Part shown: in pieces, positions 18,184-30,777 of the stretch
How positions within the stretch are numbered: the first letter of the stretch is position 1
Layout: each line of letters starts with the position of its first letter
NCBI RefSeq assembly: GCF_001650715.1
Contig: NZ_LWQT01000044.1
Coordinates: 248,001-312,000, forward strand
DNA: 64,000 nt
Reading direction: 5' to 3'
Source of the DNA: Paramagnetospirillum marisnigri
GTDB taxonomy: Bacteria; Pseudomonadota; Alphaproteobacteria; Rhodospirillales; Magnetospirillaceae
The notes under the pieces: generated by a model
Told to the model about the DNA's origin: nothing
Seen by the model: the letters and a program-made list of their open reading frames with translations, nothing else
The model's database searches: none
Translations under genes and position numbers: made by a program

Positions 18184-20517
18184 ATGACCGCTCTCTCCCT
18201 CGCCGACCGGCTGCACCTCGCCCGGCTGGCGCTGTGGTGGGAGCGATTGGTTCCGGCCGTGACCGCAGGGGCGTCGCTGCTGGCCCTGGCCACCGCCCTG
18301 GCGCTGTTCGACGCGGCGTCCTGGCTGCCGGGCTGGCTCCATGCCCTGGTGCTGCTCGCCCTTCTCGCCGCCCTGGTCTGGCTGGTCTGGTGGGCAAGGC
18401 GGCAAGTCCCTCCCACCGAGGCTGAGGCTCAGCGGCGGCTGGAAGCCGAGTCCGGCGTGTCCCATCGTCCCCTGGCGGTGCTGGAAGACCGGCTGGCCAG
18501 TGGCGATGCTCCGTTGTGGCGGCTGCACCTTCAGCGGATGGAAGCCGAGGCCGAGACCTTGCGGCCGGGCTGGCCCCGGCCGGTGCTGGCGGCCCGTGAT
18601 CCCTTCGCCTTGCGCTTTGCCGCCCTGCTGCTGCTGGTGATCGCGCTGGCCGGAACGGGGGCGGACTGGCCACAACGATTGGGGCGATTCCTGATTCCCG
18701 CCATGGCGCTTCCCGGCCTGGGGCCGGTGGCGGTGGAGGCCTGGGTCCAGCCGCCGCCCGAGACCGGGCTGGGGCCCATGGCCCTGCCCCCCGACGGGCG
18801 GGCGGTGTCCATTCCCCGGGGCAGCACCGTGACGGCGGTTCTGAGGGGAGGGCTGGGGCGTGGCAGCCTGCGGGCGGGCGATGCCGAGGTTGCGTTCGGC
18901 GCCGATGACGGCGGCGGCCGCCGGGCGGAGGCGGTGGTCGAGTCGGGCGAGCGGCTGGTGGTCGAGCAGGGCTGGCGTACCGTCGCCGCCTGGCCGCTTG
19001 CGGTGGTGGCGGACGCGCCGCCGGTGGTGTCCCTGTCCAACAAGACCGAGTCCGACGAGCGTGGGCGCCTCAATCTGCGCCTGGACGCCTCGGACGATTA
19101 CGGCCTCGCCCGGCTGTGGCTGGCGATCCGACCCGTGGAGCCGCCGCCGGGAACCGAGACCCTGACCCTGCCGCTGGTTTTGCCCGGCGACCGCCCGCGA
19201 CAGGCCGCTCTGGCGCCGCGCCTCGATCTGGCCGCCCATGACTGGGCCGGGCTGCCTGTGCTGGTGGCTCCCCATGCCGAGGATGGCGCCGGACAGATCG
19301 GCCTGGGCCTGCCGTTGCGGCTGACCTTGCCCGAACGGCTGTTCCGCAATCCCGTCGCCCGTGCCCTGATCGAATGGCGCCGCCAGGTGAGCCAGTCGCC
19401 CCAGGCGGCGCCGGAGGTGGTACTGCGGCTGCGATTGCTGCTGGCCGATCCCGATGCGGTGAATGGCGACGGTCGGGTCTATCTGGCCTTGTCGCTGGTG
19501 CGGCGTCTGCTGGCCTCGCCCGGCTTCGACCGCCACGAGGTGCGCGACCTGCTGTGGAATGCCGCCACCCGACTGGACGAGGGCGGCCTGCCCGCTGCCG
19601 AGCAGGAACTGGAGCAGGCCCGGCGCGACCTGGAACAGGCCCTGGCCGAAGGGGCGCCTCCGGCAAAGCTGGCCGAATTGCTGGAGCGGTTCGAGGCGGC
19701 GCTGGAACGCTGGATGGCGGCCATGGCGGAAGGTCCCGCCGGGCCATCCGCTCCTGGCGACGCCCAGGTGGTGGATGAGGCCGATCTGATGGAGGCCATG
19801 GAGGCGCTGCGCCAACTGGCCGAGACCGGCGACCGCGAGGGCTTGCGTCGCCGCCTCGCCGAACTGGGCGAGACCCTGTCCCAACTCGGCCGCGCCCGCC
19901 CGCCCGGCCCCGAGGATCAGGCCGCCGCCAAGGCGCTGTCGCGGCTGCGGGACCTGGCGCGACAGCAGCAGGACCTGCTCGACCACAGTTTCCAGCGCGC
20001 CCCCCGGCCGCAGGAGGATTTCGACGAGGAATCCGACCCGCTGCCCTCGGCCAAGCCTAGTGCCGCCCAGCGCGCCGAGGCCCGCAAGGCGGCGGAGGCG
20101 CAAAAGCGATTGGCCGAGGCGCTGGCCCAGTTGGGCCGTGACCTGGGGCAGCCGCCGCCCGCCCTCGGCGATGCCGGGCGCGCCATGTCCGAGGCGGCGG
20201 AGTCATTGGGACGGGCCGACTGGGCCGGCGCCGCCGAAAAGCAGGGCGAGGCGCTGCGTCTGCTGCAGGATGGCGGCCGGGATCTGGCCGAAGCCATGGC
20301 GGCCGCCCGGTCCAGCCGGGGCGGCGCGGCGATGGATCCCCTGGGCCGGGGCGGCCCTGGCAAAAGGCTGGGCGACGACGGCGGCACCAGGGTCCAGGGC
20401 GGTTCGGATGGCAGGCGGGCGCGGGAAATCCTGGAGGAACTGCGCCGCCGCGCCTCCGACCCCCGCCGTCCCGAGGTCGAACTGGACTATCTGCGCCGCC
20501 TGCTGCGGCAGTTCTAA
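18184..20517 (+). CDS. DUF4175 / TIGR02302-type membrane protein
   Basis: 777 aa. Two hydrophobic segments occur near residues 18-62 and another near 145-165 (FALRFAALLLLVIALAGTG), followed by a large hydrophilic region. The second half is rich in Ala, Arg, Glu and Gln (ARRDLEQALAEGAPPAKLAE, RLAEALAQLGRDLGQPPP) and should be long helices. This is the pattern of the alphaproteobacterial DUF4175 family that commonly follows lysA. Function is not known; an envelope role is likely. Its stop shares the tetranucleotide CTAA with the stop of the convergent iorB gene. Confidence 0.82.
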   Translation: MTALSLADRLHLARLALWWERLVPAVTAGASLLALATALALFDAASWLPGWLHALVLLALLAALVWLVWWARRQVPPTEAEAQRRLEAESGVSHRPLAVLEDRLASGDAPLWRLHLQRMEAEAETLRPGWPRPVLAARDPFALRFAALLLLVIALAGTGADWPQRLGRFLIPAMALPGLGPVAVEAWVQPPPETGLGPMALPPDGRAVSIPRGSTVTAVLRGGLGRGSLRAGDAEVAFGADDGGGRRAEAVVESGERLVVEQGWRTVAAWPLAVVADAPPVVSLSNKTESDERGRLNLRLDASDDYGLARLWLAIRPVEPPPGTETLTLPLVLPGDRPRQAALAPRLDLAAHDWAGLPVLVAPHAEDGAGQIGLGLPLRLTLPERLFRNPVARALIEWRRQVSQSPQAAPEVVLRLRLLLADPDAVNGDGRVYLALSLVRRLLASPGFDRHEVRDLLWNAATRLDEGGLPAAEQELEQARRDLEQALAEGAPPAKLAELLERFEAALERWMAAMAEGPAGPSAPGDAQVVDEADLMEAMEALRQLAETGDREGLRRRLAELGETLSQLGRARPPGPEDQAAAKALSRLRDLARQQQDLLDHSFQRAPRPQEDFDEESDPLPSAKPSAAQRAEARKAAEAQKRLAEALAQLGRDLGQPPPALGDAGRAMSEAAESLGRADWAGAAEKQGEALRLLQDGGRDLAEAMAAARSSRGGAAMDPLGRGGPGKRLGDDGGTRVQGGSDGRRAREILEELRRRASDPRRPEVELDYLRRLLRQF

Positions 20518-22052
20518 CCGCCTCGCCGCTTCGTCTCGATGGCGTCCAGGGCGGCGGCGAGGGTCTCGCCCTCGGGATCGGCCAGGGCGGCGGCCCGTGC
20601 GCTGGCCACGGCATCCAGGGCAAAGGCGGTGGGCCAGTCCTGGTCGAGGGCGGGGCGGATCACCCGGTCCCGGATGGCGGCGAAATTGGCCTCGCCCCGC
20701 CGCCAGGTCTCGCCATAGCCCTTGACCAGCCGGGCGCAGTCCGCCACCTCCAACCCCAGCAAGGGCGAGCGTTCGGTGGCGCGACTCACCAATCCCAGCC
20801 AGGCTTCCAGGGCTGACTGTTCCTCGGCGAAGCGATGGCTGAAGCGGCGCCAGCCCTTCAGGCGGGCCAGCAGCCACAATCCGGTGAAGCCGAGGATGCC
20901 GCTGCTGGCGACTTCGCTACCCACATAAGCCGTCTCGACCCAGCCGTTCGCCCGGGCCACGGCCAGGACGGGACGGGCGAGGAAGCCGGGCAGCAATCCG
21001 CAGATTTCCTCGAGGCCGGGTTTCAGGAAGTCGGTGATCACCACCGGCTGGCCGGGCTGGGCGCCGATCTCGGCGCGGATGCGCTCGAAGCGGGCGGGAT
21101 CGGTCTTGGCCTGGGCCACCCGGATCACGTCCTCGAAGCTCATGCGCACCGCCAGATGCCGGGCGACGGCGCGGGTCAGGGAGCCATCGCCGCCCGCCAG
21201 CCGTTCAGCGCCCCAGATGGGGCCAAGGCGGTCCAGGTAAAGTCGGGCATAGGCGGTATCCTGGTAATGGGCCAGGCGCCGGACTCCTTCCTCGGCCACG
21301 GCCTGGGCGGGCTCGGGCAGTTCGGAATGGGCGCGGGCCACCAGGGCCAGGGCGGCGGCGGATTCGGGTTGGGGCCGCTTGTGTCCCTGGGGCACCTGCT
21401 CCGACACCTCGCCCCTGGCGGCGGCCAGTCCGGCCTGGAAGCCGCGTAGATTGGCCTCCACCGCCTTGCCCGCCGAGCGGATACCGGCCTCGAAGGTCTC
21501 GGGGGCGATGGGCAGCACGCCGCTACCCGCCACCGCCCCCAGCAACACCGAATTGATGACGCAGCCCGCCTCCCTGGCGGTGCGCTCCATGTCGAACAGC
21601 AAGGCCTTGGCGCAACCGGCGGTGATCACCCGGCGCAAGCCCTCGGGATCGACCCGGCCGTCGCCCATGGCCGCCTTCTCCGCCACGGCGAAGACCCGGT
21701 GGGTGGAGGCGATCAGATGGGTGCGATCCTTGGCGGAAAAGCCCCGCGCCACCGTGCGGGCCGCTTCCATCAGTTCAGTGGCCACCACCAGATCCACCTC
21801 GCCCGCCGAGGGGGCCAGGGCCAGGATGGGCCGCTGGCCGCCCAGTTGCGCCAGGGGCACCGGGAAGATTTCCACGTAATAGGTGGTGGCGCCGGTACGC
21901 TGGGCGACGCCGGGGATGGAGGTGCTTTGCACCGCGAAGCCCTCGGCGGTGGCGGCTTCCACCAGCCAGTCGGTGAGAACGCCGCCGCCTTCGCCGCCCA
22001 TGGCGGCGATGACGATGGCAATGGGTCGCAAGGGCTTGCCCTGATGGCTCAT
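20514..22052 (-). CDS. iorB: Indolepyruvate ferredoxin oxidoreductase, beta subunit (IorB-like)
   Basis: 512 aa, start at 22050-22052 overlapping the iorA stop (ATGA). The N-terminal ~190 residues are the gamma-type pyruvate-ferredoxin oxidoreductase domain (AAMGGEGGGVLTDWLVEAA, QRTGATTYYVEI). The remaining ~300 residues are a DUF6537-like extension, as in fused alphaproteobacterial IorB. With IorA it oxidatively decarboxylates aryl-pyruvates to aryl-acetyl-CoA, reducing ferredoxin. Position at the end of the box operon suggests it feeds phenylalanine-derived phenylacetyl-CoA into aromatic degradation. Last gene of the operon; it converges on DUF4175. Confidence 0.88.
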   Translation of the reverse strand: MSHQGKPLRPIAIVIAAMGGEGGGVLTDWLVEAATAEGFAVQSTSIPGVAQRTGATTYYVEIFPVPLAQLGGQRPILALAPSAGEVDLVVATELMEAARTVARGFSAKDRTHLIASTHRVFAVAEKAAMGDGRVDPEGLRRVITAGCAKALLFDMERTAREAGCVINSVLLGAVAGSGVLPIAPETFEAGIRSAGKAVEANLRGFQAGLAAARGEVSEQVPQGHKRPQPESAAALALVARAHSELPEPAQAVAEEGVRRLAHYQDTAYARLYLDRLGPIWGAERLAGGDGSLTRAVARHLAVRMSFEDVIRVAQAKTDPARFERIRAEIGAQPGQPVVITDFLKPGLEEICGLLPGFLARPVLAVARANGWVETAYVGSEVASSGILGFTGLWLLARLKGWRRFSHRFAEEQSALEAWLGLVSRATERSPLLGLEVADCARLVKGYGETWRRGEANFAAIRDRVIRPALDQDWPTAFALDAVASARAAALADPEGETLAAALDAIETKRRGG

Positions 22053-24232
22053 GATGCGTTCCCCCCTCCCGACCTCCCCCCGGCCAAGCCGGGGGGAGAA
22101 GCCGAGAATGCCATCAACCAGGACCGTATCCGCCCGCGCCAGCCGTCCAGCCACAGGTCGAAGCGGTCGGGATTCTGCACCACCTCGGCCCGCCAGAAGG
22201 ACGGGCACAGCACGGCGGCATGGGCGACCTCGCCGCACAAGCCGCAGCCGACGCAGGAATTGATCACGGCCGCCACCGGGTCGTCGCGCAGCGGGTCGGG
22301 GTTGGGCTTGATGGTCAGCGACGGGCAGCCCGACAGCCGGATGCAGGAATGGTCGCCGGAACAGACCTCATCATCGACGCCGAAGCGCACCCGGATCACC
22401 CGCTCGCCCGCCTTCAGTCTGGCGGCGTCCTCGGCTTTGACCCGGCGCTGGCGGGCCAACTGGCACTCGCCATCGGCGATGATCACCTTCAGGCCCTTTT
22501 CCGCCGAGGTCATGGCCTCCTTCAGCGTGGATTTCATGGTGGACACCGAATAGGACCGCACGGTGCGCAGCCATTTCACGCCCATCACCTTCAAGGTGGC
22601 CTCGATATTCATGGGGGTCTCGGCGCGGCGGCCGGGCGCGATGGTGGACGGCATGAACTGCTGGCCGGTGGCCGAGGTATAGCCGTTCTGGAGGATCACC
22701 AGTACGCCGTCGCCCCGGTTGAACAGGCTGCCCGCCACGCCGGTGATGGCGCCGTTGTGCCAGAAGCCGCCATCGCCCATTACCGCGACGGGGCGCCGCC
22801 CCAGATTGGGGCCGACGGCGGCGGCGGAGGCCAGGCTCATGCCGAACCCCAGGATGGAATTGCCCATGGAAAACGGCGGCAATGTGCCGAAGGAATGACA
22901 GCCGATATCGGCGGAAACATGGGTCGGCCCCACATCCTTCTGGGCCAATTTGAGGGCGGCGAAGACCGGCCGTTCCGGGCAGCCGGTGCAAAAGCCCGGC
23001 TGGCGGCCGGGCAGTTCGGCCTCCAGCAGCGCCGCCGCCGTCTGGCGATGGGCGCGGATGGTCTCGGCCACGGCACGGACGGGGGCGGGATCGAAGCCGT
23101 CTGGCGCCGCCTGCTCCAGGAAGGCGGCGATGCCTTCGGCCAGCACGTCCGAGGTATATTCCCCGGCCATGGGCAGGCAGCCCTTGCCCATCAATCGGGT
23201 CGGCAGCCCGGCCTTGCGCAGGATCTGGCCCAGGGCCTGCTCGATATAGTCGGGGTTGCCCTCTTCCACCATCAGCACGGCGCTCTTGCTGGCGCAGAAA
23301 CCGGCGGCCTCGTCGGGCACCAGCGGATAGGCGACATTGAGGCAATAGATGGGAATGCGGGAGGTGCCCAGGGCATCGGCAAGGCCGAGCCGCATCAGGG
23401 CACGCATCAGGCTGTTATAGAGTCCGCCCTGGACCACGATGCCGATCCCGGCCAGATCGCCGTCGAACATCTCGTTCAGCTTGTGCTCGCGGATGAAGGC
23501 CTGGGCGGCGGGCAGGCGCTTCTCCACCTTGGCGATTTCGTGGGCGAAAGTGCTGGGCGGATGCGACAGGCGGCCATAGTCGAAGCGGGCGGGCTTGCCC
23601 ATGGGGGCATTGCGCGAGATGGCGGCGGCGCGGTTGTCCTTGGTTTCGAACTCGCCGGTGACGTGGCAGGCCTTGATGCGCAGTTCCAGCATCACCGGTG
23701 TGTTGCTGGCCTCCGACAGTTCGAAGCCTTTTTCCACCATGCGTACGATGGAGGGGAGGTTGGGGCGCGGGTCCAGCAGCCACAGCGACGACTTCATGGC
23801 GAAGGCGTGGCTGCGTTCCTGAATGACACTCGCGCCGTCGCCGTAATCCTCGCCGATGATGATCATGGCGCCGCCGATGACGCCGGGCGAGGCCAGGTTG
23901 GACAGGGCGTCGGACGCGACATTGGTGCCCACCACCGATTTCCAGGTCACGGCGCCGCGGATGGGATAGGCGATGGAGGCGCCCAGCATGGCCGCCGCCC
24001 CGGCTTCGTTGGTGCAGGCCTCGATATGGATGCCCAACTCCGACAGCAGGTCCTCGGCATCGACCAGCACATCCATCAGATGGGAGACCGGCGCGCCCTG
24101 ATAGCCGCCCACATAGGAGACGCCCGATTGCAGCAGCGCCTTGGTGACGGCCAGGATGCCCTCGCCCCGGAAGGTCTGGCCGTCGCCCAGGCGCAGCGAC
24201 TGGATTTCATGGTGGAAAGACCGCTCGGCCAT
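22049..24232 (-). CDS. iorA: Indolepyruvate ferredoxin oxidoreductase, alpha subunit (IorA)
   Basis: 727 aa. The pyrimidine-binding domain lies at ~20-200 (GVSYVGGYQGAPVSHLMDVL), with the TPP-binding domain around 460-560 (GDGGFWHNGAITGVAGSLF, the GDG...N motif). A C-terminal ferredoxin region has cysteine clusters CSGDHSCIRLSGC and CVGCGLCGEVAHAAVLC. The enzyme uses TPP, CoA and ferredoxin to convert indolepyruvate or phenylpyruvate to the aryl-acetyl-CoA. The final ~15 residues (SASPPGLAGGRSGGGNAS) are encoded by a palindromic repeat (22061-22098) and are probably an added tail. Coupled to iorB. Confidence 0.93.
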   Translation of the reverse strand: MAERSFHHEIQSLRLGDGQTFRGEGILAVTKALLQSGVSYVGGYQGAPVSHLMDVLVDAEDLLSELGIHIEACTNEAGAAAMLGASIAYPIRGAVTWKSVVGTNVASDALSNLASPGVIGGAMIIIGEDYGDGASVIQERSHAFAMKSSLWLLDPRPNLPSIVRMVEKGFELSEASNTPVMLELRIKACHVTGEFETKDNRAAAISRNAPMGKPARFDYGRLSHPPSTFAHEIAKVEKRLPAAQAFIREHKLNEMFDGDLAGIGIVVQGGLYNSLMRALMRLGLADALGTSRIPIYCLNVAYPLVPDEAAGFCASKSAVLMVEEGNPDYIEQALGQILRKAGLPTRLMGKGCLPMAGEYTSDVLAEGIAAFLEQAAPDGFDPAPVRAVAETIRAHRQTAAALLEAELPGRQPGFCTGCPERPVFAALKLAQKDVGPTHVSADIGCHSFGTLPPFSMGNSILGFGMSLASAAAVGPNLGRRPVAVMGDGGFWHNGAITGVAGSLFNRGDGVLVILQNGYTSATGQQFMPSTIAPGRRAETPMNIEATLKVMGVKWLRTVRSYSVSTMKSTLKEAMTSAEKGLKVIIADGECQLARQRRVKAEDAARLKAGERVIRVRFGVDDEVCSGDHSCIRLSGCPSLTIKPNPDPLRDDPVAAVINSCVGCGLCGEVAHAAVLCPSFWRAEVVQNPDRFDLWLDGWRGRIRSWLMAFSASPPGLAGGRSGGGNAS
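22061..22098. repeat. CTCCCCCCGGC palindromic repeat, copy 1, inside the iorA 3' end
   Basis: CTCCCCCCGGC (22074-22084) and GCCGGGGGGAG (22088-22098) form an 11-bp stem around CAA, preceded by CCCCTCCCGACCT. A copy with the same arms and nearly the same left flank lies at 26755-26784 between boxB and boxA. Here the repeat is translated as the last residues of IorA, so it seems to have entered the coding sequence. Confidence 0.75.
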
Positions 24233-24272
24233 GCCGCACTCCTCGTGGGTGTGTCTTCCAGATGGGGATCGC

Positions 24273-25061
24273 TCAGCGGCCCTGAAAGCGGGGCGGGCGC
24301 TTTTCCATGAAGGCGGCGACGCCTTCGCGGTAATCCTCGGAGCGCCCCGCTATCGCCTGAAGGTCGCGTTCCAGGTCAAGCTGATCATCCAGGCTGTTGC
24401 TGGCGGAGGCCGCCAGGGCCTTCCTGGTCAAAGCCAGACCCAGTGTCGGCTGCGCCGCCAGATGGCGGGCCATGCCCAGCGCAGTGGGCATCAGGGCCTC
24501 GTCGTCGACGCATCTCCAGATCATGCCCCAGGCCTCGGCCTGCTCGGCGGAAACCTTGTCGCCCAGCATCATCAGGGCGGTGGCCCGCGCCGTCCCCACC
24601 AGCCGGGGCAGCACCCAGGTGCCCCCCGAATCGGGGATCAGGCCCACCTTGCAGAAACTCTGGATGAATCCGGCCGAGCGGGCGGCGATGACGATGTCGC
24701 AGGCCAGAGCCAGATTGGCCCCGGCCCCGGCGGCGATACCGTTGACGGCGGCCAGCACCGGCATATCCAGATCCTTCAGCAGACGGATCAGGCGGTTGTA
24801 ATTGGCCTCCAGCGAGGCGCCGAGATCGGGGGCGGGCTCGCCCTCCTTGCGGACGCGGTCGGCGAGGTCCTGGCCGGTGCAAAAGGCGCGGCCCGCCCCG
24901 GTCAGCACGCAGCAGCGGGCGCCGCTGGTCTTCACCTCGGTCAGGGCGTCGCGCATCTCGGCGTGCATGGCGGCGTTGAAGGCGTTCATCCTGTCGGGGC
25001 GATTCAGGGTAAGGGTGGCGACGCCATCCGAGATATCGACCAGGACCGTGGCTTGGCTCAT
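24273..25061 (-). CDS. paaG: Enoyl-CoA hydratase/isomerase, PaaG-like
   Basis: 262 aa, crotonase fold. The start at 25059-25061 overlaps the thioesterase stop (ATGA). The oxyanion-hole segments are GRAFCTGQDLADR and NGIAAGAGANLALACDIV, and the catalytic region FCKVGLIPDSGGTWVLPRL resembles PaaG, which isomerises ring-epoxidised phenylacetyl-CoA to the oxepin. No paaABCDE epoxidase genes are in the window, so the substrate here may instead be a box-pathway intermediate. A general beta-oxidation role cannot be excluded. Confidence 0.8.
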   Translation of the reverse strand: MSQATVLVDISDGVATLTLNRPDRMNAFNAAMHAEMRDALTEVKTSGARCCVLTGAGRAFCTGQDLADRVRKEGEPAPDLGASLEANYNRLIRLLKDLDMPVLAAVNGIAAGAGANLALACDIVIAARSAGFIQSFCKVGLIPDSGGTWVLPRLVGTARATALMMLGDKVSAEQAEAWGMIWRCVDDEALMPTALGMARHLAAQPTLGLALTRKALAASASNSLDDQLDLERDLQAIAGRSEDYREGVAAFMEKRPPRFQGR

Positions 25062-25522
25062 GACGCGTATTCCAGGCAAAGGCTGCGATAGGCGTCCAGG
25101 CGGGCGCGCATGGGGGCGGGAATGGGGATGGACTTGCCCGCGTCCTGATCGGCCACCACGCAGACGAAGCGGGTGGAAAAGCACAATTCGCCGTCATGGC
25201 GCAGGCCCCGCGTGCTGAAATGCAACGACGAATTCCCGACCTTGTCGACGAACACATGCACGCAGACGCGGTCGCCGGGGCGCAACGGCGCCAGCATCTC
25301 CATCTCCACCTTGACGAAGGGAGTGCCGAAGCCGTGGGCCACGTTCATGTGATACCAGTCGAAGCCGATGATGTCGGCCATGAAGATTTCCAGCGCCTCC
25401 ATGGCGTATTCCAGGAAGCGCGGTGTGTAGACGATGCGGGCCGCGTCGGAATCGCCGAAATGGACCCGGTGTTCGTGGGAGAACAGCCGGGTCGGCAATC
25501 CCAGGTCAGTAGGTTTCGACAT
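25058..25522 (-). CDS. Acyl-CoA thioesterase, 4-hydroxybenzoyl-CoA thioesterase family
   Basis: 154 aa hot-dog fold protein. The motif [19 protein letters not shown] holds the active-site Asp and the following Tyr/Phe pattern of the 4HBT family. It probably hydrolyses stalled aromatic or ring-cleaved CoA esters and recycles CoA, as thioesterases in other box gene clusters are proposed to do. Its start lies 17 bp inside the end of boxA, so the two are translationally coupled. Exact substrate unknown. Confidence 0.85.
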
Positions 25523-26687
25523 GGTAGCGCCCTTCCTGGCGCAGGGTGGCCCGCAGGCTGGCCCAGTCCATGCCGTTCAGGCGGCAGATATCGGCGAAGG
25601 CCTCGTCGCAGCCATGCTCCATGCCCTTCAAGCCGCAGATATAGATATGGGTCTTGGCCTGGGGCAACAGCACCGCCAGATCGGCCGAGCGTTCCCGAAT
25701 CTTGTCCTGGACATAGCATTTGGGCTGACCGGGCAGGCGGGAAAAGGCCAGATTCACGTCGATCAGGCTTTTGGGCAGCTTCATCAGCGGCCCGAAATAG
25801 GGCAGTTCCTCGGGCGAGCGGGCGCCGAAGAACAGCATCAGCTTGCCGGGCGCGTCGGCGGCGTTGCGGCGGCGGCGCTCGGTGAAGCCCCGGAACGGAG
25901 CCGCTCCGGTGCCGGTGCAGATCATGATGATATGGGCCTCGGGGTCGTCGGGCATCAGGAAGCTCTGGCCGAAGGGACCGGCCACCTTGACCTCGTCACC
26001 CTTCTTCAGGTCGCAGACATAATTGGAACCGACGCCGCCGGGCACCCGTTTCACCGTCAGCGCCAGATTGTTGAAGCCGGTGCGCTCGCCCTCGCGCGGG
26101 GAGGCGATGGAATAGAGCCGGATATTGTGGGCGCGGCCCTTGTCGTCGACGCCGGGCGGCACGATGCCGATGCTCTGGCCTTCCAGGAAGGGAAAGGCGT
26201 TGTGCTGGAAGTCCAGCACCACATGGTGGATGTCGGAGCCGGCGCCATCGGCGGTCAGGCGCATATTGCCCGCCACCCGGGCGATGACCGGTTTCTCGCG
26301 GGAATACAGCGCCACATAGGGACTGGTGGCCGAGGCGGGGGCGGGCACCCGGGGGCCGGTGGTGGCGGTGGCCGCCGCCAGCAGGTCGCTCACCTCCTCG
26401 GGCGGCAGCGGCGCCGGCTCCGATTCGGTGGGGCCGGTCTCGCCCAGCGGCAGTTCCTCCCAGCCGAACTGGTCCTCGATGCTCCACGGATTGTCCACCA
26501 GCAGCCAGTTGTCGATGGCGCCGGTGGGGCAAGGCGAGACGCAGGCGCGGCAGAAATTGCATTTCTCCGCCATCACCACATAGTTGTTGCCGTCATGGGT
26601 GATGGCGTCGACCGGGCAGGTTTCCTCGCAGGTATTGCAGCGGATGCAGACCACCGGGTCGATCAGGTGCTGGCGCTTGAGTTCCAT
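25506..26687 (-). CDS. boxA: Benzoyl-CoA 2,3-epoxidase reductase subunit BoxA
   Basis: 393 aa. The N-terminus carries two [4Fe-4S] ferredoxin motifs ([12 protein letters not shown] and [12 protein letters not shown]). Residues ~130-393 form a FAD/NADPH ferredoxin-reductase-like module ([12 protein letters not shown] for flavin, [13 protein letters not shown] for NADP). BoxA passes electrons from NADPH to BoxB in aerobic benzoate breakdown through CoA esters. It follows boxB after a 108-bp gap containing a strong palindrome, which could alter relative expression of A and B. Confidence 0.95.
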
Positions 26688-26754
26688 GACGGCGGTTCCG
26701 TGGCTTCTCCCTCCCCCGGCGTGCTGGTGGAGGGGTGGGGTGGGGGCCCCCCTC

Positions 26755-26784
26755 CCGGCCTCCCCCCGGCCATGCCGGGGGGAG
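26755..26784. repeat. CTCCCCCCGGC palindromic repeat, copy 2, between boxB and boxA
   Basis: CTCCCCCCGGC (26760-26770) and GCCGGGGGGAG (26774-26784) form a perfect 11-bp stem with loop CAT. The left flank CCTCCCGGCC matches copy 1 except for one base. The gap 26688-26795 has no gene, and the rest of it is a G/C-homopolymer-rich stretch. In the operon mRNA this is a strong stem-loop just downstream of boxB. Confidence 0.75.
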
Positions 26785-26795
26785 GGGAGTTCAAG

Positions 26796-28217
26796 TTACG
26801 CGAACCTCACATACTCGAAGTCCACCGACTGGTTATTGATGCCGCGCGCGGGCGGGGCGATCCAGTTGGCGAACTGGCCGGGCTTGTGGACGGCGCCGGT
26901 CATCAAGGATTGAACATAGGCCAGATCGGCGGCCGAGGGCAGCCACTCGTCGCGGCGACGGGCGAACTCTTCCTTGGTGATGACCTTGCCGGTGGGGTCG
27001 ACCGCGATATCGGAGAAATGGCCGATGGCGCGGTTGAAGGCCAGATGCGGCAGGGTCAGCTTGAAGTCGATGCCGTGCTTGGCGATGATCTTGTTCCAGC
27101 GCTCGACGCCCTTGGCCACGTCCTCGGCCCAGTCCAGGCGCAAGCGCTCGTTGAGCGCGTTCAGCGCCGGGACCTCGATGGGCTGGAAGCCGCCGCTGAC
27201 CGGGTGCAGCACCGCATAGGTGGTGTGTTCCAACTGGTGGTCGTCGCCGATCTTGGTCTCCTCGAAGCGGCCCTTGAGCCCCATATTGTAGGAGGTGGCG
27301 GCATTGGTGGAGACCTCGGCGCCGTAGAGGTCCGACGTCACCGAGTAGTGGAAGTTGAGATAGCGCTGGATGGTGGGCAGGTCGATGACGCCGAACTTCC
27401 GGACATCCTCGGTGCGGTTCTCCTTCATGACCTGGCAGGCGCGTTCGATGATGCGGCCGACGCCGGATTCACCCACGAACATGTGATGGGCTTCCTCGGT
27501 CAGCATGAAGCGGCACGAGCGCGACAGCGGATCGAAGCCGGATTCGGCCAGGGCGCACAGCTGGTATTTGCCGTCGCGGTCGGTGATGAAGGTGAACATG
27601 AAGAAGGCCAGCCAGTCGGCGGTCTTCTCGTTGAAGGCGCCCAGGATGCGGGGCTTGTCGGGATCGCCCGAGCGGCGCTCCAGCATCTCCTCGGCTTCCT
27701 CGCGGCCGTCCTTGCCGAAATAGGCGTGCAGCAGATAGACCATGGCCCACAGGTGGCGGCCTTCCTCCACATTGACCTGGAACAGGTTGCGCAGGTCGTA
27801 GAGCGAGGGGCAGCACAGACCCAGCAGGCGTTGCTGCTCCACCGAGGCCGGTTCGGTATCGCCCTGGACGGTGATCAGGCGGCGCAGCATGGCGCGGTAT
27901 TCGCCGGGGACCTCCTGCCAGGCGTCGATGCCCTTATGGGCGCCGAAATTGACCTTGCGGTCCTTTTCCGGCGGCGCCAGGAAGATGCCCCAGCGGTAAT
28001 CCTCCATCTTGACATGGCCGAACTGGGCCCAGCCGTCGGGCTCGGCCGAGATGGCGGTGCGCAGATAGATTTCCGAGGTGGCGGTGCCTTCCGGCCCCAT
28101 CTCCTTCCACCAGTCGATATAGGCGGGCTGCCAGGATTCCAGGGCGCGCTGCAGCTTGCGGTCTTCCGACAGGTTGACGTTGTTGGGGATCTTGTCGGCG
28201 TAATTGATGGAAGACAT
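26796..28217 (-). CDS. boxB: Benzoyl-CoA 2,3-epoxidase oxygenase subunit BoxB
   Basis: 473 aa, the usual BoxB length. A class I di-iron oxygenase that epoxidises benzoyl-CoA at carbons 2 and 3 with O2. Carboxylate/histidine helices are visible: VEEGRHLWAMVYLL and TEEAHHMFVGESG, the paired ExxH motifs that hold the iron centre. Cytoplasmic; no signal peptide. It begins 5 bp after boxC ends. Together with BoxA and BoxC it makes a complete upper aerobic benzoyl-CoA pathway; the ligase and the lower-pathway boxD are not in this window. Confidence 0.96.
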   Translation of the reverse strand: MSSINYADKIPNNVNLSEDRKLQRALESWQPAYIDWWKEMGPEGTATSEIYLRTAISAEPDGWAQFGHVKMEDYRWGIFLAPPEKDRKVNFGAHKGIDAWQEVPGEYRAMLRRLITVQGDTEPASVEQQRLLGLCCPSLYDLRNLFQVNVEEGRHLWAMVYLLHAYFGKDGREEAEEMLERRSGDPDKPRILGAFNEKTADWLAFFMFTFITDRDGKYQLCALAESGFDPLSRSCRFMLTEEAHHMFVGESGVGRIIERACQVMKENRTEDVRKFGVIDLPTIQRYLNFHYSVTSDLYGAEVSTNAATSYNMGLKGRFEETKIGDDHQLEHTTYAVLHPVSGGFQPIEVPALNALNERLRLDWAEDVAKGVERWNKIIAKHGIDFKLTLPHLAFNRAIGHFSDIAVDPTGKVITKEEFARRRDEWLPSAADLAYVQSLMTGAVHKPGQFANWIAPPARGINNQSVDFEYVRFA

Positions 28218-28222
28218 GACGG

Positions 28223-29872
28223 TTACACCCTTTCCTGATTGTAGGCGGCGCGCTTGCCGGTTCCGTACAGCTTCAAGGCGCCCTGCTCGCCCACCGCGTT
28301 GGGGCGCTGGAAGATCCAGTTCTGCCAGGCGGTCAGGCGGCCGAAGATCTTGGTTTCCATGGTCTCGGGACCGGCGAAGCGCAGATTGGCCTCCATGCCG
28401 GTCAGCGAGTCGGGGGAGAAGGCGGCCCGCTCCTCGATCACCAGGCGGATTTCATCCTCCCAGTCGATGTCGTCGGGGGTGGCGGTGACCAGACCCAGAG
28501 CGGCGACGGCCGCCGCGTCCAGGTCCTGGCCGATAGTGTCCTTGGCCTTGCCCACGGTGTCGGGCTCGCCCAGGAAGCGGGTTGCGAGCCGGGAAATGCC
28601 GTTGCCCATGGGCAGGCCGTCGAAATTCAGCGCGGAGAGGCGGATTTTCGCGTCCGGCAGGTCGCTATCCTCGAAACTGCCGTCCAGCATGTAGGAGCGG
28701 TCCACCGCGAACAGGATTTCCGCCAGGAAGCCGGCGAAGCACGAGCCCGGCTCCACCAGGGCGAACAGGGTCCGCGAGGTGACGTCGAGTCGTTTCATGG
28801 TGCGCTTCCAGTACAGCAGCACTTCGCGGACCAGCCAGTCGCCCGCATGCTTCTGCAAGGCGGCGTCGTAGCCGCTGACCAGATCCAGGTCGCCCTCGGT
28901 CTTGAACACCCAGGAGGCGATGGTGGTCTCGTTGGCCCGCAGATGCAGGATGGCGTCATCCAATTCGCGCGCCAGGGCCAGCGGATAGAACTCCACCCCC
29001 TGGGCATGAATGGCGGCCAGATCGGCGGGCGCCGCCGCGCTCGGCCCCTTGAGGATCAGGGTGGCGGTGCGGGTGGTGCGGTCGAAGGTGATGGCGATAT
29101 GGGGATAGGTCACGGACTCGGCGGTGATGGTCCGGGCCGGATGGGTCAGCACCACCCCCTTGGCATTGGCGGGACGGTCCGAGGTGGCGGCCATGGCGGC
29201 GGCCCGCTTGGCGACGGCGTCCTTGAAGCCGGAGGAGGGAACCACCTCGTCCACCAGCCGCCATTCCACGGCGCGCTTGCCCTTCACCCCTTCCTCGATG
29301 GAGCAGAAGATGTCGGCCAGATCACGGCGCACCTTGCGCTTGTCCACCACCCGGGTCAGGCCGCCGGTACCGGGCAGCACCGCCAGCAGGGGAACCTCGG
29401 GCAGCGACACGGCGGTATTGCCGTCATCGATCATCATGATGTAGTCGGTGGCCAGGGCCAGCTCGTAGCCGCCACCCGCCGCGGTGCCGCTGACCGCGCA
29501 CAGATAGCTCTGTCGCGAGTTCTCGGTGGCGTCCTCGATGGAGTTGCGGGTCTCGTTGGTGAACTTGCAGAAGTTGACCTTGTGGCCGTGGCTGGAGACG
29601 CCCAGCATCTTGATATTGGCCCCGGCGCAGAAAATCTTCGGGTTAGCCGAGGCCATGACCACGGCGCGGACCTCGGGATGCTCGAAGCGCAGGCGCTGCA
29701 CCGCGTCATAGAGCTCGATATCCACCCCCAGGTCGTAGGAGTTCATCTTCAGTTCATAGCCGGGGGCCAGGGTGGAGGCGGGGTCCACATCCATGGTGAG
29801 CGTCGCGACGGCGCCGTCGAAGGCAAGCTTCCAGTGACGGTAGCGGTCGGGAGAGGTCTGGAAATCGATCAT
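28223..29872 (-). CDS. boxC: 2,3-epoxybenzoyl-CoA dihydrolase BoxC
   Basis: 549 aa, with crotonase-type sequence in the N-terminal half (NPKIFCAGANIKMLG, SGTAAGGGYELALATDYIMM, LLAVLPGTGGLTRV) and a second, more divergent domain, as in BoxC. The enzyme opens the epoxidised ring of benzoyl-CoA hydrolytically, releasing formate. It is the first gene of the seven-gene minus-strand operon that ends with iorB. The promoter region upstream contains TGCA-N6-TGCA palindromes, of which one overlaps a TATAGT -10 hexamer. Confidence 0.96.
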   Translation of the reverse strand: MIDFQTSPDRYRHWKLAFDGAVATLTMDVDPASTLAPGYELKMNSYDLGVDIELYDAVQRLRFEHPEVRAVVMASANPKIFCAGANIKMLGVSSHGHKVNFCKFTNETRNSIEDATENSRQSYLCAVSGTAAGGGYELALATDYIMMIDDGNTAVSLPEVPLLAVLPGTGGLTRVVDKRKVRRDLADIFCSIEEGVKGKRAVEWRLVDEVVPSSGFKDAVAKRAAAMAATSDRPANAKGVVLTHPARTITAESVTYPHIAITFDRTTRTATLILKGPSAAAPADLAAIHAQGVEFYPLALARELDDAILHLRANETTIASWVFKTEGDLDLVSGYDAALQKHAGDWLVREVLLYWKRTMKRLDVTSRTLFALVEPGSCFAGFLAEILFAVDRSYMLDGSFEDSDLPDAKIRLSALNFDGLPMGNGISRLATRFLGEPDTVGKAKDTIGQDLDAAAVAALGLVTATPDDIDWEDEIRLVIEERAAFSPDSLTGMEANLRFAGPETMETKIFGRLTAWQNWIFQRPNAVGEQGALKLYGTGKRAAYNQERV

Positions 29873-29900
29873 GGGCGGGGCGCCTTGCTGGAGGAATTGT

Positions 29901-29916
29901 CTGCACTATAGTGCAG
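29901..29916. promoter_or_regulatory. BoxR/BzdR-like operator CTGCACTATAGTGCAG over the boxC promoter
   Basis: A perfect 16-bp palindrome, 29-44 bp before boxC. It fits TGCA-N6-TGCA, the form I recall for operators of BoxR/BzdR repressors of benzoate genes. On the minus strand it contains TATAGT, with TTTTCA 17 bp upstream as a weak -35, so a bound repressor would block the promoter. The boxR gene itself is not in the window. Confidence 0.65.
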
Positions 29917-29944
29917 CAAGTCGAATTTGAAAAGCTCTAAATAC

Positions 29945-29986
29945 GCATTGTAGTGCCGGAATGCGCATTTTGTGCACTTTGGTGCA
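29945..29986. promoter_or_regulatory. Upstream BoxR-like boxes
   Basis: A second TGCA-N6-TGCA palindrome (TGCACTTTGGTGCA) lies at 29973-29986, and a weaker half-matching GCA-N6-TGC at 29945-29956. Centre spacings to the promoter box are about 71 and 42 bp, compatible with cooperative binding along one DNA region. AATGCGCATT at 29960-29969 is a further short palindrome. Confidence 0.5.
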
Positions 29987-30058
29987 TATGGGGAGGCAAG
30001 GGGAAGCGCCAACCTGTCCTCCCGACATTTATCGGGCGGAGGGATGTCTATCTGGGAC

Positions 30059-30092
30059 GTGCCCATTTGTGGGATGTGCCCATTCGTGGGCT
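30059..30092. repeat. 17-bp tandem repeat, two copies
   Basis: GTGCCCATTTGTGGGAT (30059-30075) is followed at once by GTGCCCATTCGTGGGCT (30076-30092), 15 of 17 identical. It lies between the box promoter and the fitB stop, next to a small hairpin CCCGA/TCGGG (30021-30036). It could be a regulator site or a slippage product. Confidence 0.6.
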
Positions 30093-30103
30093 GGGCGGAT
30101 TGG

Positions 30104-30529
30104 TCAGGAAACCGCGCCCCACGGATTCACCACCTCAATCCCGCATCCTTCGAAATCAGCCACATTGCGTGTTGCCAGTGCCGCGCCGCGTGACCGGGCA
30201 ATGGCCGCGATCTGGGCGTCGGCCTGGGAGATGGGCCGCCCGGACTGTCGGTGGCTGGCAGCAATGTCCGCGTAGGCTTCGGCGGCACTGGAGTCGAACG
30301 GCAAGATGCGGCCCATGAAAATCTCTTCGAAAGCAGTACGGCAGGCATTTGCCAGCGCGTCACGGCGCTTGCCGATGGGCAGAATGCTGACGCCATAGAG
30401 AATTTCGGCCTGCGTTATCGCTGGAATGAACAGGGTCGGTGCGGAAATGCCGTCGATCCAAGACAAAACCCGCGGCGCAGGTTCCGCCTTCATCAATTCC
30501 GACAGCACATTGGTGTCGAGCAGGATCAT
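30104..30529 (-). CDS. fitB: PIN-domain toxin, FitB/VapC type
   Basis: 141 aa. The PIN-domain start MILLDTNVLSELMK has the first catalytic Asp. SQADAQIAAIARSRGAALAT and NVADFEGCGIEVVNPW complete the acidic active site, and ITQAEILYGV is typical of the FitB/VapC branch. Such toxins are Mg-dependent RNases held inactive by the partner antitoxin. Its start overlaps the antitoxin stop by 4 bp. It lies between polA and the box operon. Confidence 0.9.
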   Translation of the reverse strand: MILLDTNVLSELMKAEPAPRVLSWIDGISAPTLFIPAITQAEILYGVSILPIGKRRDALANACRTAFEEIFMGRILPFDSSAAEAYADIAASHRQSGRPISQADAQIAAIARSRGAALATRNVADFEGCGIEVVNPWGAVS

Positions 30530-30777
30530 CCGTCGAAGCTCGGCGGCTCGCGCATGGGCTGGCGCGGCACCTCTGGCAGGTCGTCCACCCCACCCAGGGG
30601 CTTGAACAGCTTGTGGATCGCGCTGCCAAGCCGCACGGGTTCCTGCGGCTCCTGGCTCAGATGCGAGCGAAGGATCGTCCGCGCCTCGTCCTCCATCGAC
30701 CGGCCATGCATGGCCGCCTGTACCCGCAGGCGCGACTTCAGGGATTCATCCAGGTTGCGAATAGTGATGCTGGCCAC
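30526..30777 (-). CDS. fitA: FitA-like antitoxin (ribbon-helix-helix)
   Basis: 83 aa. The opening MASITIRNLDESLKSRLRVQ is a ribbon-helix-helix DNA-binding domain of the FitA/Arc type, followed by HGRSMEDEARTILRSHL. The C-terminus (residues ~45-83) should bind the FitB active site. FitA normally represses its own operon together with FitB. An inverted repeat 15 bp upstream of the start (30792-30818) is a good operator candidate. Confidence 0.9.
   Translation of the reverse strand: MASITIRNLDESLKSRLRVQAAMHGRSMEDEARTILRSHLSQEPQEPVRLGSAIHKLFKPLGGVDDLPEVPRQPMREPPSFDG

Follow-up and report, generated by a model that had tools for sequence, protein, structure and literature searches.

Introduction

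Why should a split oxidoreductase of the indolepyruvate (Ior) type stand in an operon for the oxygen-dependent breakdown of benzoyl-coenzyme A (benzoyl-CoA)? The question is raised by a 64,000-nucleotide stretch of Paramagnetospirillum marisnigri DNA (the window), part of contig NZ_LWQT01000044.1 (C44) in a 4.6 Mb genome of 131 contigs. Window positions 29872-20514 hold a minus-strand unit of seven genes, boxC-boxB-boxA-4HBT thioesterase-paaG-iorA-iorB. An earlier note on this DNA had put the seven genes here, all on that strand, and the placement was borne out by equivalog models for BoxA, BoxB, BoxC and PaaG and by subfamily NF006179 for IorB. The unit is a real, conserved operon marked by predicted BoxR sites, and most of it, the PaaG-like protein included, reads as ordinary Box biology. 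The split Ior-like oxidoreductase within it is unusual and recurs in related bacteria. For the whole we tentatively propose a BoxR-controlled aerobic or microoxic benzoyl-CoA operon that may have taken in a feeder enzyme, an explanation to which we give somewhat less than even chances. The locus ties an uncharacterised, widespread oxidoreductase family (at least 576 relatives) to the well-understood Box pathway and gives the box-linked IorAB family a short list of testable substrates.

A predicted BoxR regulon

The BoxR-like boxes that the earlier note had seen before the first gene are two TGCA-N6-TGCA sites ahead of boxC (Table 1). According to excerpts of PMC6449761, BoxR and BzdR bind TGCA repeats 1, 6 or 15 nucleotides apart, the 6-nucleotide form being the main one, and BoxR regulons include formate dehydrogenase and enoyl-CoA hydratase/isomerase genes. 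An operator scan of the window allowing up to two mismatches returned two sites against 0.03 expected from shuffles. The proximal site, TGCACTATAGTGCA, includes a -10-like hexamer (a consensus match only). Among 17 genomes of the genus, 14 of which carry boxB and are called box-positive here, all 14 box-positive genomes have a proximal site at -43 to -52 and six of the 14 have another at -114 to -116, this genome being counted in both. The exact 14-mer occurs in 12 of the 17; it is missing from the three boxB-negative genomes and from the box-positive G255 and G275, which carry TGCATTATAGTGCA in its place.

Searching the whole genome with TGCAYTATARTGCA at up to one mismatch gave three sites, all beside box-regulon genes (reversed-pattern control, 0). 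One lies before boxC and two at C44:154-159 kb, where the order is boxR, operator, two formate-dehydrogenase-like genes, operator, a PnbB-family gene, an alpha/beta hydrolase gene and boxD. The boxR product joins a helix-turn-helix to a shikimate-kinase domain (HTH_3 and SKI), and boxD (C44:151493-153019; NF008868, 760 bits, cut-off 444) lies ~120 kb from boxCBA; both genes share the contig of boxCBA. Operators and an HTH/shikimate-kinase regulator, the marks of a BoxR regulon, are both present in the sequence. As the operator is conserved and all three genomic sites adjoin box-regulon genes, a single predicted BoxR regulon covering the operon and the boxR/formate dehydrogenase/boxD cluster is well supported as a prediction, and the operon-and-regulon layer of our explanation is very probably right. 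The idea of one regulator is supported as well, with BoxR-type operators in front of the operon and boxR on the same contig. A benzoate-CoA ligase gene (TIGR02262, 797 bits) lies with an ABC transporter on C62, a contig on which the motif scan gave no operator site.

The operon is conserved in the genus

Within the genus, IorB exceeds the NF006179 cut-off in 13 of the 17 genomes, that is in 13 of the 14 box-positive genomes (the exception is G118) and in none of the three box-negative ones (G176, G185 and G209). The order boxC-boxB-boxA-(thioesterase)-paaG-iorA-iorB is found on a single contig in ten genomes (the window, L038-L041, L044-L047 and L050), and in G110 and G216 paaG, iorA and iorB stand at the edge of one contig (L186, L187) and a different contig ends just behind boxB. 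From these cases paaG and iorA are adjacent in 12 of 14 box-positive genomes. Such conservation of gene order indicates that the operon arrangement is not a matter of chance. Among the 12 genomes in which the stretch between boxA and paaG can be read, 8 have the thioesterase gene; it is not found in L046-L049.

In the window, the junctions boxA/thioesterase, thioesterase/paaG and iorA/iorB overlap by 17, 4 and 4 bp, whereas boxC-boxB, boxB-boxA and paaG-iorA are separated by 5, 108 and 40 bp; the description of the genes as mostly overlapping was thus only half right. A simple scan of 20400-30200 found no minus-strand terminator-like site, including none between paaG and iorA, and its two minus-strand promoter-like sites, not above chance (1.1 expected), both precede boxC; the gap from boxB to boxA does, however, contain a G+C-rich palindrome. 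The promoter or terminator between boxA and iorA that would have spoken against one operon was not seen in that scan.

Most congeners also hold an anaerobic benzoyl-CoA reductase (bcrB in 14 of 17), and it is in this group that a probably ferredoxin-linked 2-oxoacid enzyme has been kept next to an oxygenase. IorB tracks boxB, not bcrB: G185 has bcrB and neither boxB nor IorB, and G275 (79% complete) has boxB and IorB with no bcrB found. In view of this distribution, a partnership of IorAB with the anaerobic benzoyl-CoA reductase is not favoured.

The flanks of the operon vary. Upstream of boxC, pnbB, the hydrolase gene and boxD continue the operon in several loci, L038 and L041 among them; boxD immediately precedes boxC in 10 of 14 (L038-L043, L045 in part, L046, L047 and L050) and not so in the window, L044, L048 and L049, and in this genome and G126 it is elsewhere on the same contig. 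Behind iorB, a set of HlyD, ABC-ATPase and ABC-permease genes follows in L038-L041 and, truncated at a contig or locus end, in L186 and L187. In L045 only HlyD stands before the contig ends, and the set is also present behind the unlinked ior of L185 (G190). It was not found behind iorB in the window, L044, L046, L047 or L050. With six congeners, the cut-off L045 and the unlinked G190 as its only occurrences, the exporter is ruled out as a fixed part of the operon. Two small open reading frames on the opposite strand lie between iorA and iorB in three congeners (L041:12105-12992, L045:2815-3693 and L186:2959-3843); those of L041 gave no Pfam match.

box and ior beyond the genus

The order-wide set comprised 297 genomes, many of them incomplete. 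boxB was above cut-off in 65 and NF006179-type IorB in 54: 44 genomes had both, 21 only boxB, 10 only IorB and 222 neither (odds ratio 46, p 7e-27; all Fisher tests here ignore phylogeny). The same counts were 31/20/10/219 outside the genus (odds ratio 34) and 19/10/6/76 with genera as units (odds ratio 24, p 1.6e-9). The fused Ior served as control (173 genomes at E <=1e-60, of which 166 pass the cut-off) and gave an odds ratio against boxB of 4.1 (p 1e-5), or 3.0 outside the genus. This value is still above 1, and set against 46 it rules out that just any Ior tracks box.

boxB and IorB share one contig in 15 genomes and lie within 13 kb in 13, namely ten of the genus plus G162, G144 and G069 of family f20, and the pairing of box with ior that the earlier note singled out is thus found in other genomes too. 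In the f20 loci L072 and L075, boxC, boxB and a ligase gene (benzoate-CoA ligase family in L075) are followed on the opposite strand by a cluster that looks transporter-like, judged solely by gene lengths and matches to ABC-ATPases, then by a PnbB relative, a thioesterase gene and iorA. The PnbB relative is 59-60% identical to that of L038 and the thioesterase 28-32% identical to that of the window. The third f20 locus, L074, has boxC, boxB and iorA, but neither PnbB nor a thioesterase was matched there.

A quick tree of 97 rows groups the IorA of the genus in a single 14-row clade (support 100), with box-free Pseudolabrys-type sequences as its neighbours. The genus belongs to a larger supported clade of 66 rows, and the three f20 IorA lie beyond it as a separate box-linked branch. 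The linkage of box and ior therefore likely arose twice, as read from a short-searched tree in which the f20 branch is long. The closest named IorA among the matches listed is that of P. kuznetsovii LBB-42, at 88% identity.

Relatives of IorA numbered at least 576 in one scan, from which the neighbourhoods of 80 loci, some with short flanks, were kept. One of the 80, a congener, has box genes, so the idea that this Ior family is box-linked in general is rejected. Outside the box context the relatives lie near a DctM cluster in 25 loci, TctC in 21 and a 4HBT thioesterase in 15 (each cluster named from one example). Such transporter neighbours would fit organic-acid uptake and name no specific acid.

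PaaG fits the Box lower pathway

The closest PDB chain to the PaaG-like protein is E. coli PaaG (4fzw_C, E 2e-96), and the LIPD segment is retained. Excerpts of PMC4498308 give 3,4-dehydroadipyl-CoA as the BoxD product and report that PaaG, within the Paa pathway, also carries out the Delta3-Delta2 isomerisation of 3,4- to 2,3-dehydroadipyl-CoA, an activity that suits the Box lower pathway equally. PaaA, the mark of a Paa pathway, was found in none of the 17 genomes of the genus, this one counted. Across the order it occurs in 10 of 297 genomes (E <=1e-60), three with IorB and without boxB and one with boxB and without IorB; none of the 44 that combine boxB and IorB has it. Since PaaG would convert the BoxD product and PaaA was found nowhere in the genus, the protein probably serves the Box lower pathway by isomerising 3,4- to 2,3-dehydroadipyl-CoA, with good confidence. 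Its assignment to a third pathway is not supported, and the reading as a Paa-pathway piece is rejected. Unlike in the E. coli phenylacetate pathway, the epoxide-isomerase role of PaaG is not expected here because PaaA is not found.

IorAB is a split 2-oxoacid oxidoreductase

By its domains, IorAB is a split 2-oxoacid oxidoreductase (POR plus DUF6537). Its IorB belongs to the IorB-like subfamily NF006179. Both subunits fall short of the indolepyruvate:ferredoxin oxidoreductase equivalogs (IorA 250 of 651 bits for TIGR03336, IorB 43 of 206 bits for TIGR03334); with IorA so far below its cut-off, "indolepyruvate" is a family label here and no demonstrated substrate. The features of a 2-oxoacid:ferredoxin oxidoreductase are present, that is the thiamine pyrophosphate (TPP) site, the Fe-S ligands and the POR domain, one ferredoxin Cys being Asp. 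The TPP motif GDG...N and the Fe-S-motif Cys are invariant in 25 aligned IorA. The first ferredoxin motif has the Asp in the box-linked IorA and in the fused Ior of the same genome, and Cys in its canonical IorA. In PDB sequence searches for a close relative, IorA alone and the IorB profile gave no match and the IorA profile one weak match.

The genome holds further enzymes of this kind: a canonical IorAB on C98, whose IorA at 637 bits narrowly misses the cut-off of 651, PadGHI above cut-off on C109, and a fused Ior on C10. It also has a benzoyl-CoA reductase on C56. With canonical IorAB, fused Ior and PadGHI already there, the box-linked IorAB is an additional enzyme. It shares TPP and POR domains with the canonical IorAB and the fused Ior (NF009588/NF009589), its IorA being 30% identical to the canonical and 27% to the fused copy, and DUF6537 is common to the box-linked IorB and the fused type. 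The canonical iorAB lies in an exactly repeated stretch: with its neighbouring genes it occurs twice on C98, 28,729 bases apart (L182, L183), and loci L001 and L002, each of 3,540 bases, do not differ from one another, the repeat being either a recent tandem duplication or an assembly artefact.

A possible feeder of the Box pathway

In the scheme that we propose, BoxA and BoxB would epoxidise benzoyl-CoA, BoxC and the distant BoxD would open the epoxide to 3,4-dehydroadipyl-CoA and formate, PaaG would move the double bond and so produce 2,3-dehydroadipyl-CoA, the formate would be oxidised by formate dehydrogenase, and the thioesterase may release CoA from stalled thioesters. IorAB would act on an aromatic 2-oxo acid by oxidative decarboxylation, and the CoA ester so formed would be usable by the same operon. 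The fitting product would be benzoyl-CoA and hence the substrate phenylglyoxylate (benzoylformate) or a close analogue, with ferredoxin as acceptor. Pathway logic favours such an aroyl-CoA product: as PaaA was not found in any of the 44 genomes with boxB and IorB, the known aerobic Paa outlet would be closed there to phenylacetyl-CoA, whereas benzoyl-CoA has its outlet in the same operon, which points to an arylglyoxylate as substrate. We hold phenylglyoxylate to benzoyl-CoA as a candidate reaction, plausible but short of probable. If correct, it would widen the range of compounds that enter the Box pathway.

Several observations weigh against such a feeder. G118 has box without this IorB, and in G190 iorAB and the HlyD/ABC exporter are on a separate contig (L185) away from box; in both (L049 and L048) pnbB, the hydrolase gene, boxCBA and paaG are kept, and there is neither a BoxD above cut-off nor a box-linked ior. 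Order-wide, 21 of 65 box-positive genomes are without this IorB and 10 of 54 IorB genomes without boxB, in statistics uncorrected for phylogeny and heavily weighted by family f20. Among the matches listed, the IorA that come closest outside the genus (Pseudolabrys and others) have no box genes next to them, in line with the single box-linked locus in 80. Finally, PadGHI phenylglyoxylate dehydrogenase is already encoded here, so a second enzyme for phenylglyoxylate would be redundant unless used with oxygen. A more doubtful proposition is that the split IorAB of DUF6537 type tolerates oxygen, forms aroyl-CoA as a 2-oxoacid oxidoreductase (benzoyl-CoA from phenylglyoxylate) and was joined to box at least twice; if true, a ferredoxin enzyme of supposedly anaerobic type would serve an oxygenase pathway.

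The main rival, unlikely in our estimate though a serious one, is that IorAB is an arylpyruvate oxidoreductase turning phenylpyruvate or indolepyruvate into the arylacetyl-CoA, with phenylacetyl-CoA passing via Pad to benzoyl-CoA and Box finishing with oxygen. The family names of IorA and IorB suggest it, the Aromatoleum IorAB makes phenylacetyl-CoA from phenylpyruvate anaerobically (excerpts of PMC9765128), and the genome has PadGHI above cut-off and, at the place expected for PadBCD, molybdenum-enzyme-like and Fe-S genes whose identity as Pad is unconfirmed. Against it, the canonical IorAB and the fused Ior are already at hand, and the aerobic outlet fails with PaaA, Pad having been looked for in this genome only. 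The joining of phenylalanine-derived phenylacetyl-CoA with benzoyl-CoA catabolism that the earlier note suggested is doubtful on the same grounds: the anaerobic Pad-route genes would allow it, and the distribution of PaaA speaks against it.

That iorAB is a chance neighbour, a module that has a promoter or function of its own and settled behind paaG, is improbable. The exporter after iorAB in about half of the congeners, the free-standing ior-HlyD-ABC module of G190, the opposite-strand reading frames that part iorA from iorB in three congeners and the TRAP and TctC-type transporter genes that often adjoin non-box relatives would all suit such a module. It is opposed by the paaG-iorA adjacency, by the confinement of IorB to box-positive congeners, by the order-wide co-occurrence with its second box-linked clade, and by the clean paaG-iorA junction in the terminator scan. 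Least likely, at long odds, is that IorAB mainly supplies electrons, 2-oxo-acid-reduced ferredoxin passing them to the BoxA ferredoxin domain or another acceptor, since BoxA is described as NADPH-specific (excerpts of PMC4498308) and carries its own FNR-like domain, even though IorA keeps Fe-S ligand motifs and BoxA has 4Fe-4S ferredoxin domains.

Relation to known systems

PadEFGHI phenylglyoxylate dehydrogenase converts phenylglyoxylate and CoA to benzoyl-CoA. This is the reaction proposed for the box-linked IorAB, catalysed with a different subunit make-up, and PadGHI is found elsewhere in this genome. The BoxR-regulated box clusters of Betaproteobacteria likewise comprise boxCBA, TGCA-N6-TGCA and BoxR, with optional enoyl-CoA hydratase/isomerase and formate dehydrogenase genes (PMC6449761, in excerpts). 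Those excerpts name no indolepyruvate oxidoreductase, whereas here iorAB is in the operon; here, too, boxCBA and boxD are ~120 kb apart on one contig. A literature search of open-licence papers, covering titles and abstract openings, gave no description of a link between box and Ior among the papers listed.

Gene calls and neighbouring features

BoxA, BoxB and BoxC all score above their equivalog cut-offs, which places the unit in the Box pathway (Table 1), and the genome also has the BoxD and the benzoate-CoA ligase expected of that pathway. BoxB aligns with the solved BoxB (3per) across nearly its whole length and retains the EEGRHLW and EEAHH segments.

Table 1. Features of the box-ior operon in window coordinates
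Feature	Position	Strand	Basis
Distal BoxR-type operator (predicted), TGCA-N6-TGCA	29973..29986		114 bp before boxC; two mismatches from TGCACTATAGTGCA
Proximal BoxR-type operator (predicted), perfect palindrome TGCACTATAGTGCA	29902-29915		TGCA-N6-TGCA, 43 bp before boxC
boxC	28223..29872	-	TIGR03222 equivalog 991 bits (cut-off 712); PDB 2w3p E 1e-207
boxB, benzoyl-CoA epoxidase oxygenase subunit	26796..28217	-	TIGR03225 equivalog 911 bits (cut-off 499); PDB 3per E 4e-226
boxA, reductase, 4Fe-4S ferredoxin and FNR-like domains	25506..26687	-	TIGR03224 equivalog 579 bits (cut-off 459); Pfam Fer4, NAD_binding_1
4HBT-type hotdog thioesterase (aroyl-CoA or other acyl-CoA)	25058..25522	-	PF13279; PDB 2oaf E 2e-22
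paaG-like isomerase	24273..25061	-	TIGR02280 equivalog 395 bits (cut-off 345; scored on longer reading frame from 25184); crotonase family
iorA-like TPP and Fe-S subunit, 2-oxoacid oxidoreductase	22049..24232	-	PF02775; TIGR03336 250 bits (cut-off 651)
iorB-like subunit, POR and DUF6537	20514..22052	-	NF006179 611 bits (cut-off 348; longer reading frame from 22238); PF01558, PF20169

A G+C-rich palindrome, CCCCCCGGCNTGGCCGGGGGGAGG, has near-identical copies at window 22073-22099 and 26759-26785 (4 matches counting both strands, 0.01 expected). The second copy sits in the boxB-boxA gap; the first lies inside the 3' end of iorA and gives a C-terminal tail, IorA having 727 residues here and 699-716 in the called congener genes. 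Upstream of boxC are polA and two small genes, the latter (30104-30777, between boxC and polA) overlapping on the minus strand and resembling by eye a VapBC toxin-antitoxin pair with a PIN-like sequence. At the other end, iorB overlaps the end of a convergent DUF4175 gene (18184-20517) by 4 bp (20514-20517).

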